DNA from: Sphingobacteriaceae bacterium
GTDB taxonomy: Bacteria; Bacteroidota; Bacteroidia; Sphingobacteriales; Sphingobacteriaceae
Direction of reading: 5' to 3'
DNA length: 53,922 nt
NCBI GenBank assembly: GCA_947460875.1
Contig: CANHGR010000012.1
Coordinates: 1-53,922, forward strand
The position numbers and the translations under genes are program-made. The notes under the pieces were generated by a model that saw only the letters and a program-made list of their open reading frames with translations, was not told the origin of the DNA and searched no databases. How positions within the stretch are numbered: the first letter of the stretch is position 1; the number at the start of each line of letters is the position of its first letter. Shown piece after piece: positions 699 through 51,283 of the stretch.

Positions 699-2051
699 TC
701 AAAACCCCAAATGTGCCTTAATGATATCCTGAATTAAGGTCGGTGTGATGCGTTCTTTGCCTAATTGTTTCTCAGTAATCAATACGGGACAATATTCTGT
801 AGCAACATTTACTCTTCCATGCGAGCCTTTGATCAGCGTAGCATCAAGCGGAATAACATCCATCACGTATCTGAAGCCTGCTTTTTTACGCATTAGTTTA
901 TAGCCTGCGCGCAACTTGGAGCTCATGAACATTTCTACAGGGTCGTAACCCGGCTTCTTATGGATATCTACACAGCGCGCATAATCGGGTGCCAGGGCAT
1001 CGTCCCGCCAGAAATAATAGGTAAACCAGCTGTTTGCGTCTGCCATAAGGACCAAGTCGCCGGAACGGGCATGGTCAATATGGTATTCTGTTTGGGCTTT
1101 ACGGTCGAGTACAAGCTCTATGCCGGGTACAGTTTTTAATAATTCTTTGACTTTCTCTGTTACAGAAGGATCATTGATATAAACATGAGCTATTTGATGG
1201 TCGGCCACCACAAAGGCTTTTGACGCGCCCGGGTCGAGCAGCTCTAGTCCTCGTTCTACGCGGATTGCAAGAAGATCGTTTTCTCTGAATAATCTATTTA
1301 AATGAATGGGATTGTTTACCGGACTAATTCCATATTCCGATAGCAAAATGATTTTTGCATTTTTCTTTTCGTAAAACTCTACCAATTGCTTAATAACGTC
1401 ATCTATCTCGTTTAACTCTTTCGAAATCTTTGAAAAATCGGGGCCAAATTTTTGTAAGCAATAGTCAAGATGGGGGAGATAAATTAAAGTTAGTGTCGGA
1501 TCATGCAAATCATCAGTAAGCATGGAGGCATCAGCAATCCATTGGGTTGATTTGATATTAGCTCCGGGTCCCCAAAATTGAAAAAGCGGGAAAACCCCAA
1601 GTTTTTCTTGCAAGACGTCTCGCAATTCGGCCGGATGCGAGTAGCAGTCTGGCGTTTTTCTGCCGTCTGCTAAATAATTGGGCCGTGGAGTAACAGAAAA
1701 GTCTGCCGATGAGTACATATTATACCACCAGAACATGGTGCTGCAGGTAAATTTCGGATCTGCTTTCTTTGCCTGATCCCATATCTTTTCACCTTGTACT
1801 AATTTGTTGGATTGTTTCCAGAACTTGACTTCACAATCTTCTCTGTCGTACCAGCCATTGCCAACGATGCCATTTTGTGAAGGAAATTTACCAGTTACAT
1901 AAGTTGATTGTACAGAAGTAGTTACAGCCGGTAGCAAGGGTTCGATGTTGTGTAAATGATGCTCAGCAATGTACTTCTGTAGAAAAGGTGTATGCTCTCC
2001 AATAACCGAGGCCGAGAGTCCGACAATATCTATAACAACCGTTTTGTTCAT
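699..2051 (-). CDS. eboF: EboF-like alkaline phosphatase/nucleotide pyrophosphatase superfamily protein
   Basis: A 450-residue protein of the alkaline-phosphatase/type I phosphodiesterase fold, the usual sixth member of ebo clusters. I start it at the ATG giving MNKTVVIDIVGLSAS, because the first metal Asp (D8) normally sits at the very N-terminus and a -7 box lies directly before this ATG; an upstream in-frame ATG would add 29 residues. T44 in PAVTTSVQSTYVTG matches the NPP nucleophile. Other ligands deviate: LPHLDYCLQKFG keeps D196 but has Q200 where the family has His, and LSEYG has E239-Y240 where the family has Asp-His. H411 in GSHG is kept. No signal peptide, so a cytoplasmic location is inferred. 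Family placement is firm; activity is uncertain. Confidence 0.82.
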   Translation of the reverse strand: MNKTVVIDIVGLSASVIGEHTPFLQKYIAEHHLHNIEPLLPAVTTSVQSTYVTGKFPSQNGIVGNGWYDREDCEVKFWKQSNKLVQGEKIWDQAKKADPKFTCSTMFWWYNMYSSADFSVTPRPNYLADGRKTPDCYSHPAELRDVLQEKLGVFPLFQFWGPGANIKSTQWIADASMLTDDLHDPTLTLIYLPHLDYCLQKFGPDFSKISKELNEIDDVIKQLVEFYEKKNAKIILLSEYGISPVNNPIHLNRLFRENDLLAIRVERGLELLDPGASKAFVVADHQIAHVYINDPSVTEKVKELLKTVPGIELVLDRKAQTEYHIDHARSGDLVLMADANSWFTYYFWRDDALAPDYARCVDIHKKPGYDPVEMFMSSKLRAGYKLMRKKAGFRYVMDVIPLDATLIKGSHGRVNVATEYCPVLITEKQLGKERITPTLIQDIIKAHLGF

Positions 2052-2054
2052 GGT

Positions 2055-2062
2055 CAAATTTA
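2055..2062 (-). promoter_or_regulatory. -7 promoter element of eboF, directly before the start codon
   Basis: On the minus strand TAAATTTG matches the Bacteroidota -7 consensus TAnnTTTG. Its last G is three bases before the eboF ATG (2051), so the start of transcription should fall on or next to the A of the ATG. I found no convincing TTG -33 element at the usual distance, so confidence is moderate. Confidence 0.45.
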
Positions 2063-2144
2063 GTGTTTTTAGGGTTGAATAATAAGGATTTTCAATGTAA
2101 ACATGATTTGAAATCTGCGGGAGTTTGGAGATGTTCAATCGTAT

Positions 2145-2262
2145 TTTGGCATCATGCAGGTATGCGCCTCGTATCCCCCGCGGGCGGGGGAATTAAACGG
2201 GGTGGTTTGTAAAAAAACCTCCCCCTTGCCCCCCTAAAAGAAGGGGATATGCATGATGCAAA
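2145..2262. repeat. MITE-like inverted-repeat element between csp and eboF
   Basis: GCATCATGC at 2149-2157 is mirrored by GCATGATGC at 2251-2259, each with a TTT(G) on the outside; both arms continue towards a TATCCCC stretch. Between them lie C-runs and G-runs (2174-2190 is a near-perfect C5GCGGGCG5 palindrome; 2219-2235 is C-rich). About 118 bp, no coding potential. It looks like a small non-autonomous or REP-type element inserted downstream of the cold-shock gene. Confidence 0.5.
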
Positions 2263-2349
2263 TGCTAAAGATTAAAGAATCGGTGTTTTTGCAATTTTCC
2301 TTAGGTTTTGGAAAATAGGTATTGACCGACTACAAACCAAAAAAACCAA

Positions 2350-2544
2350 TTATCCAGTCTTCGTTACTCCAATTGCCGATGGACCTCTTTTCCCATCAAC
2401 CATGTCATATGAAACCTTGTCTTGTTCTTTGATATCGTCTGTTAGTCCCGAAACATGAACGAATATTTCTTTGTCGCCATCGTCTGGTGTGATAAAACCA
2501 AAACCTTTGGTTTGATTAAAAAACTTTACTATCCCGGTTGGCAT
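2350..2544 (-). CDS. Cold-shock domain protein (CspA family)
   Basis: A 64-residue single cold-shock domain. RNP1 is seen as KGFGFITPD (about residues 14-22) and RNP2 as IFVHVSG (about 27-33); the start MPTGIVKFFNQTKGFGFI is canonical and the length is typical. It binds single-stranded RNA/DNA in the cytoplasm and melts mRNA structure. It sits inside the ebo gene row, between eboE and eboF on the same strand, but has its own promoter-like sequence at 2559-2588 and an MITE-like element after it. It is therefore probably an independent gene that landed in the cluster, although it could couple eboF expression to cold. Identity is certain; the regulatory role is speculation. Confidence 0.95.
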   Translation of the reverse strand: MPTGIVKFFNQTKGFGFITPDDGDKEIFVHVSGLTDDIKEQDKVSYDMVDGKRGPSAIGVTKTG

Positions 2545-2592: not shown

Positions 2593-2606
2593 GTTTTACG
2601 TAAAAC
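2593..2606. repeat. 14-bp perfect palindrome over the eboE stop codon
   Basis: GTTTTACGTAAAAC is perfectly self-complementary and covers the last codons and stop of eboE. The 12-mer TACGTTTTACGT (2590-2601) recurs at 5014-5025 between eboD and eboC. No T-run follows on the minus strand, so it is not a standard terminator; it could be a protein-binding site or part of a low-complexity repeat family. Confidence 0.4.
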
Positions 2607-3807
2607 CTAATTGCCCCTTCACCCATAATAACTCCCTGATGATCGACTCTTCGATCGGCAATTTAGACTCTTCCGGAAGCACTTCCCAGGTATAGGTTTC
2701 TACCTCAAGATGGGATGTGAGATTTGTTTTTTTATGGATATTTAGTACCTCGACTATATCATCTTGGGTAGATTTTACTAAACCCGGATACTGCGTAAAT
2801 ACAGGAACATGAAAATGTGCTCGCCATTCAACAACTCCTTCGTGATTGATATCCGGAAGAGCATTCGGCAGATCGCGGTAGCGGATAACCGAACCATCAT
2901 TTTTTCGGGCAACCACCTGGTGTAAATAGGTAGATTCATTAAACTTTTCAAAAGCTGCAGCCAATTCAATTTTCGGACCCCTTTGCGGGATACCCGCTTT
3001 AAGCGCTGCACTAATTTGAAATTTGCCAATTTTTAAGCCGTTCTGTTCAAGCTGATTTATTACTTTTTCATGAGGCTCATAACCGATTGCAAAATGGCAA
3101 ACGTCATAGCAAAGCCTGATATGTTGTTTTAACGCGTGCTCGGCTTCGTCCTCCGAAAGGGAATACTTCTGCACAATGCTTTTTACACCTAAGGGTATAA
3201 GCCAATTCTCAAACCAATGGATAAATTCAGCCCCAGTTTCGAGGATGCCATCGGGTTCAGGTTCGATGTCCAGATGCAATATCCGGCCGCTTTTTTGTTG
3301 TATCGCGATGAGATGCTCAACTACTTTGATGATGTTTTCGGTGGCGAGTTCTGTGGCTTTTTTTAAGTCTCCGGCAGTTTGCCACCAATATCGATAGCTC
3401 AAGGGCGAAGTAGATACGCCTCCGTCCATCCCGTCGGGTAAAAGTTCCTTTAGAATATCAAATAGCCGAATTGAATAGTCCACGCGTTCTGTGGTGGTCC
3501 AGTCGGGAGCATGAACCTGATCTTTTACCCTAGTATTGTGAAATCCCCCGTAAGGGAAACCATTCATCGTAAACACATACGCACTTGCTTCTTCTAGCCA
3601 GTGCCTAAATTCGCTAAGATTCTCTTTTTTAATAAGTTCGAGACTAGCAATATGCGATAAACGCAGTCCGATAGCCATAGGATTCGCAGGCGAAACACCG
3701 TTTTTTATCAGGGGGAAAAGTCGTTTTAGAGCCGCAAAATGATCGGGCCAACTTTCGCCGGCATGAATATTTGTGCAATAGGTTAAATGACCGTTATCCG
3801 TCAGCAT
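2596..3807 (-). CDS. eboE: Metabolite traffic protein EboE (xylose isomerase-like TIM barrel)
   Basis: 403 residues, the usual EboE size, starting MLTDNGHLTYCTNIHAGESW. The His/Glu-rich strand ends suit a divalent-metal TIM barrel of the sugar-phosphate isomerase/AP endonuclease 2 superfamily: the N-terminal THIHAGE-like segment (here TNIHAGE), LHLDIEPEPDGILETG (about 195-210), LCYDVCHFAIGYE (about 233-245), FQISAAL and WRAHFHVPVF (about 330-340). In cyanobacteria the ebo genes are needed to move the scytonemin monomer to the periplasm; the EboE reaction is not known. It follows eboD with one base between stop and start, implying translational coupling. The assignment rests on fold plus neighbours. 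Confidence 0.85.
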   Translation of the reverse strand: MLTDNGHLTYCTNIHAGESWPDHFAALKRLFPLIKNGVSPANPMAIGLRLSHIASLELIKKENLSEFRHWLEEASAYVFTMNGFPYGGFHNTRVKDQVHAPDWTTTERVDYSIRLFDILKELLPDGMDGGVSTSPLSYRYWWQTAGDLKKATELATENIIKVVEHLIAIQQKSGRILHLDIEPEPDGILETGAEFIHWFENWLIPLGVKSIVQKYSLSEDEAEHALKQHIRLCYDVCHFAIGYEPHEKVINQLEQNGLKIGKFQISAALKAGIPQRGPKIELAAAFEKFNESTYLHQVVARKNDGSVIRYRDLPNALPDINHEGVVEWRAHFHVPVFTQYPGLVKSTQDDIVEVLNIHKKTNLTSHLEVETYTWEVLPEESKLPIEESIIRELLWVKGQLGFT

Positions 3808-17752: not shown

Positions 17753-17783
17753 TTGGTAATAAGCTGTTTTAAAAATATCTTTG
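17753..17783 (+). promoter_or_regulatory. ddl promoter giving a predicted leaderless mRNA
   Basis: TTG (17753-17755), 20-nt spacer, TATCTTTG (17776-17783): a full match to the Bacteroidota -33/-7 promoter. The last G is three bases before the ddl ATG (17787), where transcription itself should begin. Confidence 0.65.
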
Positions 17784-24569: not shown

Positions 24570-24960
24570 ATGAACACTGAAGAAATCGGTCTGGAGCAAA
24601 AAAACACTAAACCAATAATAGATCAGCTAGATGGATTATTAGCTAATTATCATTTACATTATCAAAAGTTACGTGTTTGCCATTGGGATGTAATGGGAAC
24701 GAATTTTCTTGCGCTTCATATGAAGACTAATGAATTGAATGCGAATGCTACAAGAACTATCGACGAACTTACTGAAAGAATATTATCACTAAAGAAAACA
24801 CCTTTGAGTACTTATCAGGAGTATATTAACTCTTCAGTACTCAGAGAAGCTCAAAAAATATTTTGGAGATATTGATCTTCTAAAATATATTTTAGGTGTT
24901 TTTGAAACACTAATCGCTTTTGAGCGTGGAGTTGCAGAAATAACTGTAAAAAATCATTTA
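24570..24960 (+). pseudogene. Dps/ferritin-like DNA-protection gene, frameshifted and 3'-truncated
   Basis: The N-terminal 100 codons read as Dps: MNTEEIGLEQKNTKPIIDQL, HLHYQKLRVCHWDVMGTNF with the ferroxidase His, LALHMKTNEL, then RTIDELTERILSLKKTPLST. The frame closes at 24873-24875. Dropping one T from the TTTT run at 24861-24864 restores the family pattern (KIF-GDIDLLKYILGVFETLIAF-ERGVAEI). After that the expected DEGT and C-terminal helix are missing and the text stops resembling Dps near 24945. So there is one frameshift plus loss of the 3' end. The next gene begins at 25008. A sequencing error could explain the frameshift but not the missing tail. Confidence 0.75.
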
Positions 24961-25259: not shown

Positions 25260-25267
25260 TACCTTTG
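25260..25267 (+). promoter_or_regulatory. -7 element just before ubiD-like gene
   Basis: TACCTTTG fits TAnnTTTG; its G is six bases before the ATG at 25274, so the leader is predicted at about three bases. No clear -33 TTG. Confidence 0.45.
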
Positions 25268-33540: not shown

Positions 33541-34536
33541 TTAGAAATTTCTAAATCCGATTATCTCGCGAATCTCATTAAGGGTTTTTGATGCGCTTTT
33601 TCGCGCTTTTTCAGCTCCAAAGGCAGCAATCTCACGTAAAATATTGGTATCAGTTTCTATTTCTTTGATACGTTCCCTGATCGGTGCCGTAGCAACAATC
33701 ATGTCTTCTGCCAACTGTTTTTTCAAATCGCCATAGCGGATCTGGCAGCTGTTGTAAAGTGCATTAAAATGATCGTAGGTTTCTGTACTAGAAACGACTT
33801 GCATTAGGTCGAATAAATTTTGAATAGCCTCAGGTTTGCTTTGGTTTTTAGCTTCCGGTCCGCTATCGGTGACCGCACGGGCTACTTTTTTGCGAATGAT
33901 TTCGGGTTCATCAGAGAGAAAAACTGCATTTGATTCTCCGTTCGATTTACCCATTTTACCCTTGCCGTCTAAGCCGGGAATTTTTACAAGTTTCCCGGTA
34001 AAGTTGAAGGCATAAGGCTCTTGGAAATAAGCGGTATCATACAATCTGTTAAAGCGATTTGCAAATGTGCGAGCCATTTCCAGATGTTGTTCTTGATCTT
34101 TTCCGACCGGAACTTTAGTAGCTTTATGAATCAATATATCTGCTGCCATTAGAACAGGATAGGTGAGCAATCCTGCATTGACATTATTCGGCTGAGCCCG
34201 TACCTTGTCTTTAAATGACGTGCTGCGTTCCAGCTCTCCCATGTAGGCGTTCATATTTAAAAAAAGGTATAGCTCAGCAATTTCTGGAACGTCAGACTGT
34301 ACGTAGATCGTGGCTTTTTCTGGGTCTATACCTGCGGCGAGGTATTCTACAAGCACATGTTTCACGTTGACATGAAGGTCTTGCGGTGTAGGATGTGTTG
34401 TTAGCGAATGGTAATCGGCAATAAAGAAAAAGCAGTTATGCTCCTGCTGCATTTTTACGAAGTTTTTTACTGCTCCATAATAATTTCCTAGGTGTAATTT
34501 GCCGGTACTTCGAATACCGCTGACAACAGTTTCCAT
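33541..34536 (-). CDS. trpS: Tryptophan--tRNA ligase
   Basis: 331 residues when started at METVVSGIRSTGKLHLGNYY, which puts the class I HIGH-like motif (KLHLGNYYGA) at its usual place; a 22-residue upstream extension is possible on paper but contains the promoter. The second signature reads GKGKMGKSNGES (KMSKS loop with Gly for Ser, as usual in this group). Other marks: FFIADYHSLTTHP, GELERSTSFKDK and PVGKDQEQHLEMARTFANRF. Length is normal. A 40-bp gap separates its start from the divergent plsC-like gene, and both promoters must lie in it. Confidence 0.96.
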   Translation of the reverse strand: METVVSGIRSTGKLHLGNYYGAVKNFVKMQQEHNCFFFIADYHSLTTHPTPQDLHVNVKHVLVEYLAAGIDPEKATIYVQSDVPEIAELYLFLNMNAYMGELERSTSFKDKVRAQPNNVNAGLLTYPVLMAADILIHKATKVPVGKDQEQHLEMARTFANRFNRLYDTAYFQEPYAFNFTGKLVKIPGLDGKGKMGKSNGESNAVFLSDEPEIIRKKVARAVTDSGPEAKNQSKPEAIQNLFDLMQVVSSTETYDHFNALYNSCQIRYGDLKKQLAEDMIVATAPIRERIKEIETDTNILREIAAFGAEKARKSASKTLNEIREIIGFRNF

Positions 34537-34543
34537 ACATGGG

Positions 34544-34570
34544 CTAAAGTAAGGAATTTTTATATTTTTG
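34544..34570. promoter_or_regulatory. Divergent -7 elements of trpS and plsC packed in a 40-bp gap
   Basis: Minus strand: TACTTTAG (34551-34544), one base off TAnnTTTG, ending 7 nt before the trpS ATG. Plus strand: TATTTTTG (34563-34570), ending 6 nt before the plsC-like ATG (34577). Each -33 region would have to fall close to or inside the other transcript's start. No clear TTG -33 elements on either side. Confidence 0.4.
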
Positions 34571-34576
34571 TTGCTG

Positions 34577-35314
34577 ATGAAATTCTTTAAACTGCTGCAC
34601 ACTTATCTATACATCTTTGTTGTGGCGCTTATGTTTTATTTGCTCTACCCGCTGTTTTTTTATCTCACCCGTAAGCCCGAGCGATTCAGACAACTTAATG
34701 GTGTGAGATATTATTTTGCTTTGTTGAGTTCAGCGTTTGTGGGCTTCTTTTACCGCTTCCGGATAGAGGAGAAAATAGATTGGTCGCGAACATATATCAT
34801 TTGTCCTAATCATTTTTCTAATTTAGATATCTCCATCGCTACGTTAATTGTACCTTCTAACTTTGCCTTTTTGGGAAAGGACGAGTTGGCAAAGCATCCT
34901 ATTTTCAGTATTTTCTTCAAAACCGTTGACATACCGGTCAACCGGGATAGTATGATGTCCTCGTTTCGTGCGTTTAAAAAGGCCGAAAGCTATTTGAAAG
35001 ATGGTATCTCCCTGATTATATACCCTGAAGGGAAAATCGGTGAAGAATTTCCACCAATCTTGCATTCCTTTAAAAAAGGTCCATTTAGACTCGCAATTGA
35101 GCAGCAAATACCGATAATCCCTGTGACAATATCAGATGCCTGGGAAAAATTATGGGATGATGGCTTGAAGTATGGAAGTAGACCCGGAATTTGCGATATT
35201 TGCATTCATAAGCCCGTGGAAACTTCTGGTCTTACTCTCGATGATTTAGACAGCTTACGCGATAAAGTTTACGGTATAATTGCTACAGAATTAGAAAAGG
35301 ATGAAGCTCGATAA
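34577..35314 (+). CDS. plsC: 1-acyl-sn-glycerol-3-phosphate acyltransferase (PlsC family)
   Basis: 245 residues from MKFFKLLHTYLYIFVVALMF, which starts with a membrane-embedded helix. Acyltransferase block I is CPNHFSNLDIS (NHx4D, about 75-85); block II contains FLGKDELAKHPIFSIFFK; block III reads IYPEGKIGEEFP (about 151-162, EG of the canonical FPEGT); block IV is IPIIPVTISDAWE. It adds the second acyl chain to lysophosphatidate, or acylates a related lipid such as the ornithine/glycine lipids of Bacteroidota. Overlaps gatC by 14 bp, so the two genes are translationally linked. Confidence 0.88.
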   Translation: MKFFKLLHTYLYIFVVALMFYLLYPLFFYLTRKPERFRQLNGVRYYFALLSSAFVGFFYRFRIEEKIDWSRTYIICPNHFSNLDISIATLIVPSNFAFLGKDELAKHPIFSIFFKTVDIPVNRDSMMSSFRAFKKAESYLKDGISLIIYPEGKIGEEFPPILHSFKKGPFRLAIEQQIPIIPVTISDAWEKLWDDGLKYGSRPGICDICIHKPVETSGLTLDDLDSLRDKVYGIIATELEKDEAR

Positions 35315-49339: not shown

Positions 49340-49662
49340 AGACTATGGTGTTTGAATGCCACTCGTAATGCTACGTTTCCCCTCAAAAATCAAAAATTTT
49401 ATGCCACTTAATCTCATGCTTCCCCTTTGAAATTACCTTAGGCGCCTAGCCCAGTTTCTCCGCAAGCGTCGTGGTTGGCATAAGCTTAAACTTTCTTAGC
49501 AATCCCAAATTTGTTCGACTATCTACGGGCAGTAGGTGCCAAGGTCTGTCGTCGTTTTTCCTCACGATGACAGATATGAAATTTTTCTTCATACTTCCAG
49601 CTCCTTAGACCTTGCGCCATGTCTTTGTCTTTACTCCATAAAATCTCCCTTATATTTGCTCC
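49340..49662. other. Intergenic region with decayed repeats
   Basis: No gene. CTGTCGTCG (49546-49554) and CGATGACAG (49565-49573) form a hairpin with one G-T pair, like REP remnants. From 49580 onward the DNA becomes pyrimidine-rich (CTTCCAGCTCCTTAGACCTT and similar), resembling 44220-44397. Confidence 0.45.
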
Positions 49663-49890
49663 ATGATAGAACCATTTGACATTTTTATAGGATCAACAGC
49701 CTATTCAGTATTTGCGGAAGAAGATGAGACCTTCACCATTTTTAAGGAAGGAAAGGAACATGTACGAATTCAAAAAGACACCGAAGGCATCTGGTTAAAG
49801 CTTGATTATGAAACAGACCTGCCTTTATTTGAAGAAGATGCAGAGGTGAATGAAATTGGAAGGCAGATTGGTTTGTATAAACCGGAGTAG
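49663..49890 (+). CDS. Small acidic protein of unknown function
   Basis: 75 residues, MIEPFDIFIGSTAYSVFAEE then DETFTIFKEGKEHVRIQKDT and IWLKLDYETDLPLFEEDAEV. Beta-rich with alternating polar/hydrophobic residues, no signal or membrane segment; composition is clearly protein-like. I recognise no family. Flanked on both sides by repeat-type DNA. Confidence 0.6.
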   Translation: MIEPFDIFIGSTAYSVFAEEDETFTIFKEGKEHVRIQKDTEGIWLKLDYETDLPLFEEDAEVNEIGRQIGLYKPE

Positions 49891-49975: not shown

Positions 49976-49990
49976 TATATTTGATCTCCC

Positions 49991-51283
49991 ATGAGTAATA
50001 AACCTAAACCAATCAACCCCGTCCGCCGGATATTGACCGCAAGTCTTATCGGCACCACCATTGAGTTTTTCGATTTCTACATTTACGCCACCGCCGCGGT
50101 GCTGGTATTTCCGAAATTGTTTTTCCCGCCGGGTGATCCTGCAGCGGCTACGCTGGAGTCGCTGGCTACATTTGCGCTTGCTTTCTTTGCACGTCCATTG
50201 GGTGCGGCTTTGTTTGGGCATTTCGGCGACCGTTATGGACGTAAGGCTACGCTGGTGGCTGCGCTGATGACGATGGGGCCGTCGACGGTGGCAATTGGAT
50301 TGTTGCCGGGTTATGCCACAATTGGTATTGCAGCACCGATACTGCTCGCAGTATTTCGTTTCGGGCAGGGTTTGGGGCTTGGCGGAGAATGGGGTGGCGC
50401 CGTGCTGCTTGCTACAGAAAATGCTCCTCCGCATAAGAAAGCCTGGTATGGGATGTTCCCGCAATTGGGTGCGCCCATCGGTTTCCTGCTCTCGACGGGT
50501 ATATTTTTTATTCTGAGTAAAACAATGAGTGATGCTGATTTTATCAGCTGGGGCTGGCGCATCCCCTTTATATCCAGTGCTTTGTTGGTGTGGGTAGGAC
50601 TGTATATCCGTCTCAAAATTGAGGAAACGCCTGATTTTTTGAAAGTCGTAAACAGCAAACAGCAGTCGAAAATGCCGGTGGCGGATGTATTTACTAAACA
50701 CACTAAAGCGATCACGCTTGGTACATTAGCTACGATAACCACTTTTTTGCTGTTTTATTTGATGACGGTTTTTACATTGAGTTGGGGAACATCAGCTTTG
50801 CACTATTCAAAAAGTGACTTCCTGATACTGCAAATGATCTCGATGCTGTTTTTCGGTATTGGTATTCCACTTTCGGCTGTGCTTGCCGATAAATATGGAC
50901 GGGCTAAGATGTTAAGTTTTGCATCAGTAGGTATTATGATTTTCGGCCTTGTTTTCGCACAACTGTTTGTTGGCGGAAGCTTGTTTATTTGTGGTGTATT
51001 CTTGTCTATCGGAATGTTTCTTATGGGCTTAACTTACGGTCCGATTGGTACGGCCCTGGCAGGTATTTTTCCGGCGCCCGTGCGGTATACCGGAGCTTCA
51101 TTGGCGTTCACACTTGCTGGAATTTTCGGGGCTTCGCTTACGCCTTATCTAGCAACAACTCTTGCAAATAATTTCGGTCTTGCCTATGTAGGCTATTACC
51201 TTACGGGAGCAGCTGGTTTATCATTGCTTGCATTTTTGGGAAGTTGGAAAATGATGGAGCCTTCAGTCCGCGCAGATCAATGA
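49991..51283 (+). CDS. MFS transporter, metabolite:H+ symporter (MHS) family
   Basis: 430 residues, 12 membrane helices. The MHS signature is clear: ASLIGTTIEFFDFYIYATAA (about 17-36), FFARPLGAALFGHFGDRYGR (about 65-84, containing the GxxxDRxGR loop), GLGLGGEWGGAVLLATENAP (about 128-147), then FPQLGAPIGFLLSTG. Relatives include ProP, ShiA, KgtP and citrate symporters, importing small organic acids or betaines with protons. The gene is noticeably GC-richer than its neighbours, and its low-complexity flanks are partly inverted to each other, suggesting horizontal acquisition. Substrate unknown. Confidence 0.9.
   Translation: MSNKPKPINPVRRILTASLIGTTIEFFDFYIYATAAVLVFPKLFFPPGDPAAATLESLATFALAFFARPLGAALFGHFGDRYGRKATLVAALMTMGPSTVAIGLLPGYATIGIAAPILLAVFRFGQGLGLGGEWGGAVLLATENAPPHKKAWYGMFPQLGAPIGFLLSTGIFFILSKTMSDADFISWGWRIPFISSALLVWVGLYIRLKIEETPDFLKVVNSKQQSKMPVADVFTKHTKAITLGTLATITTFLLFYLMTVFTLSWGTSALHYSKSDFLILQMISMLFFGIGIPLSAVLADKYGRAKMLSFASVGIMIFGLVFAQLFVGGSLFICGVFLSIGMFLMGLTYGPIGTALAGIFPAPVRYTGASLAFTLAGIFGASLTPYLATTLANNFGLAYVGYYLTGAAGLSLLAFLGSWKMMEPSVRADQ

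Follow-up and report, generated by a model that had tools for sequence, protein, structure and literature searches.

A minority of genes in a Bacteroidota genome carry the octamer TAnnTTTG only 3–8 nt upstream of the start codon. This octamer is the known -7 promoter box of the phylum, where it is accompanied by a -33 TTTG (PMC6847099). We read these close boxes, with a probability of about 0.8, as -7 elements of sigma-ABfr type housekeeping promoters, from which transcription is predicted to start at the start codon or within about 4 bases of it. The basis of this reading is the positional excess of the box, its peak at a gap of 4 nt and its dip at gaps 8–12, its promoter-like features, the preference for AUG, and the repeated occurrence of the close box before ddl and plsC in different genera. 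Near-leaderless initiation is probably real in this organism, but as a minority mode (about 6% of the ORFs).

Close boxes in the window and in the genome

We analysed a window comprising bases 1–53,922 of one contig (C12) from an assembly of 2.21 Mb in 26 contigs. TAnnTTTG was mildly enriched in it (71 copies vs 57.0 ± 7.4 in shuffles; at least 71 copies in 3 of 100 shuffles). A box was observed at most 60 nt from an early ATG in 15 of the 47 ORFs of the window, and in six of those 15 (eboF, ddl, ubiD, plsC, a DUF4905 gene and an MFS transporter gene) the gap between box and ATG was 3–8 nt (Table 1). The first-pass annotation had placed the eboF box three bases before its ATG, as at ddl, and had given ubiD and plsC a gap of six; these coordinates are correct to the base. 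The 'overlap' of box and start codon that it described at eboF is the wrong word, since the two adjoin and share no bases.

Table 1. Candidate close boxes of the window and features of the eboF locus (gap, nt between box and ATG)
Feature	Sequence	Position	Strand	Details
eboF, putative -7 promoter box	TAAATTTG	2062-2055	-	spacer ACC 2054-2052; gap 3 to ATG 2051-2049
ddl, candidate -7 box	TATCTTTG	17776-17783	+	spacer GAG; gap 3; ATG 17787
DUF4905 gene (24445-23681), candidate -7 box	TAATTTTG	24458-24451	-	gap 5
ubiD, candidate -7 box	TACCTTTG	25260-25267	+	gap 6; ATG 25274
trpS, box-like sequence	TACTTTAG	34544-34551	-	gap 7 to ATG at 34536; divergent from plsC
plsC, candidate -7 box	TATTTTTG	34563-34570	+	gap 6; ATG 34577
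MFS transporter gene (49991-51283), candidate -7 box	TATATTTG	49976-49983	+	gap 7
eboF-like gene		699-2051	-	type I phosphodiesterase/nucleotide pyrophosphatase, PF01663, domain from residue 4
Strongly folding stretch		2140-2270	-	z -4.36 vs shuffles; inverted repeat 2146-2158/2250-2262; between cold-shock gene and eboF
Cold-shock domain gene		2350-2544	-	64 aa, PF00313; between eboE and eboF
eboE		2596-3807	-	NF035939

Two further observations concern the same DNA. TATATTTG also occurs at gap 4 before a 75-aa ORF (49663–49890; site 49651–49665), which is under the length cut-off used. A 101-aa frame at 24570–24875 matches a ferritin-like domain over the first half of the profile only (PF00210, positions 1–71 of 142, E 5.8e-6), and could be a truncated or disrupted Dps-like gene.

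The positions of the box were counted in an 842-kb sample of the genome, consisting of the window and 40 stretches taken at regular steps, not at random, along contigs C1–C11 and C13–C18. ORFs were called as a greedy set (619 ORFs, 77% of the bases) that omits ORFs of fewer than 90 codons, ORFs truncated by the end of a stretch and ATGs preceded by less than 150 nt. A gene caller based on codon usage was discarded; it covered 72% of the bases and missed plsC. In-frame ATGs near the ORF beginning served as candidate starts (873), and the mean over 29 anagram motifs served as the control.

At gaps 3–8 we observed 43 boxes, whereas the 29 anagram motifs averaged 3.4 and reached 12 at most. The excess peaked at gap 4 (15 vs 0.4) and extended over gaps 5, 6 and 7 (5 vs 0.4, 5 vs 0.5 and 9 vs 0.6, respectively), with 2 vs 0.8 at gap 8 and 2 vs 1.3 at gaps 0–2. 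Gap 3 alone was the weakest part of the excess at gaps 3–7 (7 vs 0.8, control maximum 6). Further upstream, the counts were 8 vs 2.8 at gaps 9–13, 66 vs 16.6 at 14–40, 30 vs 11.6 at 41–60 and 53 vs 22.1 at 61–100. The zone between the two groups is thinned, not empty, in this genome (10 boxes at gaps 8–13, with 3.6 expected). Of the excess found within 100 nt, these counts assign about a quarter to the near boxes, which precede 42 of the 619 ORFs, about 6% after subtraction of chance.

The excess at gaps 3–8 persisted when the window was excluded (37 vs 5 for the motif on the opposite strand) and when only first ATGs were considered (41 vs 5). Boxes beginning with TAA or TAG could favour gaps 4 and 7 as an artefact of in-frame stops. 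We rejected this explanation, since boxes in which a stop codon is impossible as the first triplet (27 vs 0, 0 and 0 for three control motifs that begin in the same way) still peaked at gap 4, which held 11 of the 27, while gap 7 dropped from 9 to 4. Over the whole genome, without gene calls, gap 4 had 73 boxes against 28 for the reversed pattern. A genome-wide count of the box-to-start distances, which the first-pass annotation had proposed as a check, thus bears out an excess of short distances, in this genome and, as described below, in its family. Its 'common mode' of initiation holds as far as the class is real and the close box of ddl and plsC is found in many genera; common it is not, being limited to the minority of ORFs given above.

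The near boxes have several features of promoters. They lay outside called ORFs in 40 of 42 cases, and 39 of 43 matched TAHHTTTG. G at the two free positions was present in 7% and 2% of near boxes and in 9% and 7% of leadered boxes (81 boxes), compared to 23% and 16% of boxes inside genes (431 boxes). The DNA upstream of both near and leadered boxes is AT-rich. Operon-internal genes accounted for 5 of the 42 near-box genes vs 184 of all 619 ORFs (Fisher 0.008), and a second box 14–100 nt upstream was found at 1 of 42 near genes vs 118 of 818 other candidate starts (Fisher 0.02). By codon, near boxes preceded 43 of 884 early ATGs, 5 of 238 GTGs, 5 of 519 TTGs and 17 of 2318 ATT, ATA or CTG codons. 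A -33 TTG element gave no clear peak among the 42 near or the 81 leadered boxes; it is weak in F. johnsoniae too.

We scanned 26 of the proteins encoded at the 42 ORFs, six of them from the window, against Pfam, and 23 of the 26 matched a family. Named here from their domains, they include RecR, QueG, a polyprenyl synthetase, a HemW-like enzyme, PurD, ribulose-phosphate epimerase, peptide deformylase, TrmD, endonuclease III, a BamD-like lipoprotein and a NuoA-like subunit.

The first-pass annotation had also linked the short distances to the lack of Shine-Dalgarno sequences. GGAGG was indeed absent from the 42 near genes, but this is not specific to them: it was equally absent from the 86 leadered genes (AGGAG in 1 of 86), and over all ORFs it occurred in 5 of 616 (letter-order controls, mean 2.8, maximum 4). 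Therefore, the near-leaderless mode does not explain the missing signals, because leadered genes lack them as well. The authors of an RNA-seq study in F. johnsoniae likewise stated that leaderless translation cannot explain the absence of Shine-Dalgarno sequences (PMC6847099).

The spacing in related genomes

Whole-genome counts were obtained for 61 genomes of the family, with the reversed pattern as the control. The box and its reversal occurred 26,921 and 20,521 times at gaps 3–7, 21,371 and 20,667 times at gaps 8–12, and 24,347 and 20,209 times at gaps 15–19. In all 61 genomes, gaps 3–7 exceeded gaps 8–12, and so did gaps 15–19. The box was above the reversed control in 58 of 61 genomes at gaps 3–7, in 35 at gaps 8–12 and in 48 at gaps 15–19. 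In a set of 41 genomes, gap 4 was above its control in 40. One genome of the same class (G032) had an unusually strong excess at gap 4 (32 vs 3 for the reversed pattern), and leaderless genes may be commoner there.

At ddl, we read 106 loci from 119 other family genomes with a match. The box stood at gap 3–7 in 47 of these orthologues, at 8–16 in none, at 17–22 in 16, at 25 in one and at 35–90 in 22; 20 had none within 100 nt. Anagram controls gave a mean of 0.4 and a maximum of 2. The close box was found in 13 of 24 genera, with differing spacer letters. Some genera (g5, g16, g17, g18 and others) had the box at longer gaps only, and in 5 of the 24 (g8, g11, g12, g23 and g24) none of the copies read had a box within 100 nt.

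At plsC, 104 loci were read, of which five were excluded for lack of an ATG close to the aligned start. A box at gap 3–8 was present in 75 of the remaining 99, with a gap of exactly 6 in 42 (anagram controls: mean 1.2, with one control reaching the maximum of 20 of 99). The close box occurred in 16 of 20 genera, again with spacer letters that vary between genera; it was absent in four genera (g16, g18, g20 and g23), and most copies of g4 and g17 also lacked it. Beyond the family, five of eight loci had a box at gap 4–7, two of these before GTG or TTG. At ubiD, the close box was found in 4 of 29 relatives, one of the four being distant.

The trpS and plsC genes point away from each other, and 40 nt separate the two start codons (34536–34577). 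The same trpS start (ATGGAAAC) was located within 100 nt in 45 of the 99 family plsC upstream regions, and in 45 of 45 a box-like sequence preceded it at gap 4–8: TACTTTCG in 44 and TAATTTCG in one, with letter-order controls reaching at most 2 of 45 and the motif having been chosen after the sequences were viewed. By its sequence, this is a second, variant candidate box facing that of plsC.

The name eboF comes from the first-pass annotation and from the place of the gene after ebo genes, and is not carried by any model searched. The best relatives of its protein are from Mucilaginibacter, Daejeonella, Pedobacter and the like, by which the genome very probably belongs to the Bacteroidota near Sphingobacteriaceae. 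NCBIfam identified the upstream genes as EboE, EboC and EboA; the EboA call rests on a domain model above its cut-off, the EboA family model being below its own. An ATG was present at the place aligned to the eboF start codon (2049–2051, minus strand) in 80 of 80 relatives, and a misplaced eboF start was rejected on this ground. None of the 80 had a box within 20 nt of this start, and five had any box within 70 nt (gaps 22–35). Among five family orthologues, none had a box within 60 nt.

In all 80 relatives, eboE is upstream of eboF on the same strand. Its stop codon was at most 60 nt from the eboF start in 73 of them and 62–228 nt in the other seven, bar one with an unreliable frame. The distance in the present genome is 544 nt and contains the cold-shock gene and the strongly folding stretch. 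The latter is a possible terminator; a repeat element was also considered and dropped, as the stretch is single copy in the 842-kb sample. From this gene order, it is likely that the cold-shock gene and the folding stretch came between eboE and eboF, separating eboF from the rest of the ebo operon, and that eboF is now served by the close box as a promoter of its own. Read-through from the cold-shock gene is possible. The eboF gene is the least secure of the four cases first named (eboF, ddl, ubiD and plsC), having a gap of 3 and no relative with a box close by.

Predicted transcription starts and alternative explanations

In F. johnsoniae, transcription is reported to start 4 or 5 nt after the box, and the -33 element is weak (PMC6847099); in F. 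psychrophilum, the box spans -12 to -5 (PMC9723704). We took the start site from F. johnsoniae and infer initiation on a 5'-terminal AUG. A -7 box abutting the ATG would give an mRNA with no or nearly no leader, on which the ribosome must initiate at an AUG at the 5' end. With a start 4 nt after the box, gaps 3–8 would correspond to leaders of about -1 to 4 nt: gap 4 would place +1 on the A of the ATG, gaps 5–8 would leave leaders of 1–4 nt, and a gap of 17 or more would leave about 12 nt or more. The same distance would place +1 inside the ATG at gap 3, and the gap-3 genes, eboF and ddl, would therefore have to start one base closer to the box, possibly helped by the purine A. This gap, one base shorter than the reported box-to-start distance, counts against our reading, as do the rarity of short leaders in the published maps of other Bacteroidota, the lack of a clear -33 TTG peak, the missing close box at eboF in its relatives and the one high anagram control at plsC.

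It could be argued that an AT-rich genome simply yields TAnnTTTG near starts and that a close handful was noticed. The mild enrichment in the window and the count at gap 3, barely above the worst anagram control, would fit this, but the count at gaps 3–8 with or without the window, the recurrence at ddl and plsC, and the higher counts at gaps 3–7 than at 8–12 in 61 of 61 genomes would not. We consider chance very improbable, and for the class as a whole it is refuted by the sample, window-free and stop-free counts. Misplaced start codons, with true starts downstream and promoters that are ordinarily leadered, are also highly unlikely. Automatic start choice is error-prone, and in-frame ATGs near the ORF beginning were used; however, besides the conserved ATG of eboF, ddl loci aligned from residue 1–5 in 30 of 30 and plsC loci from residue 1–7 in 24 of 30, and the Pfam domain begins at residue 1 in the PurD-like, 4 in the deformylase-like, 5 in the epimerase-like and 4 in the eboF protein.

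The box might instead be a translation signal beside the AUG, Kozak-like or of the S1 type, within the leader of transcripts that start further upstream. In F. johnsoniae, translation is reported to be tuned by bases near the start codon (PMC6847099), Nakagawa et al. named leaderless mRNA and/or binding of S1 as alternatives for Bacteroidetes (PMC5397173), and the box distance at plsC is nearly fixed. However, the element described in PMC10783764 consists of upstream adenines and not of TAnnTTTG. Operon-internal genes have fewer near boxes, a near box seems to take the place of an upstream one rather than to be added to it, and ddl orthologues carry the box either at gap 3–7 or at 17 and more. 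The octamer is also in excess 14–60 nt upstream, a distance at which one would not look for a signal tied to the start codon. A translation signal is therefore unlikely, and we retain the promoter reading.

Boxes are sparse from gap 8 to about gap 13, which suggests that leaders of only a few bases function poorly. A stronger rule may be drawn from the spacings, although we put it at somewhat below even odds: in the family (probably Sphingobacteriaceae), the box would stand either 3–7 nt before the AUG or at a distance leaving a leader of about 10 nt or more, and the positions between would be selected against. With similar reserve, genes like ddl would under this rule switch between the two states in evolution without being found in the middle, as the 47 copies at gaps 3–7, none at 8–16 and 16 at 17–22 might indicate. 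The rule is softened by plsC, with boxes at gap 8 in 7 of 99 orthologues and at gap 9 in one, and by the zone of this genome that is thinned rather than empty. If it were true, the Bacteroidota ribosome would be able to load mRNA by two distinct routes, and some household genes, among them the two genes of the compact divergent pair trpS/plsC, would be held leaderless.

Household genes with a candidate promoter at the start codon in many genera would lend themselves to tests of leaderless initiation, and thereby of how ribosomes of Bacteroidota select start codons in the absence of Shine-Dalgarno pairing. From the sparsely filled zone between the two spacings, one can predict the leader lengths that should work badly. 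Gene finders may also be able to use the close box as a start-site signal in this group.

Comparison with known promoters and leaderless systems

A literature search that examined few papers in detail and left subscription journals mostly outside retrieved no report of the close-box recurrence at ddl and plsC or of the two-peaked spacing across the family, and no start-site map of Sphingobacteriaceae by title, searches for leaderless together with Pedobacter included. A 2011 sequence survey listed leaderless genes in 1 of 37 Bacteroidetes/Chlorobi genomes; its authors had used Pribnow-like boxes only and allowed that Bacteroidetes may be undercounted, yet thought many missed genes unlikely (PMC3160421). 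Nakagawa et al. attributed upstream base biases in Bacteroidetes to possible leaderless genes and/or S1 sites (PMC5397173), and the anti-Shine-Dalgarno of F. johnsoniae is described as concealed (PMC10783764).

The boxes share with the sigma-ABfr promoters of Bacteroidota the octamer, the avoidance of G at the free positions and the AT-rich upstream DNA (PMC6847099); the difference is in their place, further upstream there and 3–8 nt before the start codon here. Earlier work on Bacteroidota has described leaderless genes at a frequency of a few per cent: leaders under 10 nt amount to 3.7% in B. thetaiotaomicron (PMC7366714), leaderless transcripts to 5.5% in F. psychrophilum (PMC9723704), and leaders of 10 nt or less to 13% of 241 in F. 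johnsoniae (PMC6847099). The phenomenon is therefore of a known kind, in the same phylum and again as a minority class. The start sites were mapped or predicted from RNA-seq in those species, whereas here they are predicted from the DNA sequence. What our counts add to these leaderless mRNAs is the recurrence of the spacing at single genes across genera and the two peaks in 61 of 61 genomes.

C. glutamicum belongs to a different phylum and uses GUG as well in its leaderless genes. It resembles the present case in having a leaderless class (707 of 2,147, 33%) beside a leadered one, with leaders of 1–10 nt at only 80 of 2,147, a group that its authors singled out as unexplained (PMC3890552). The leaderless class is, however, far commoner in C. 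glutamicum than in the genome described here.
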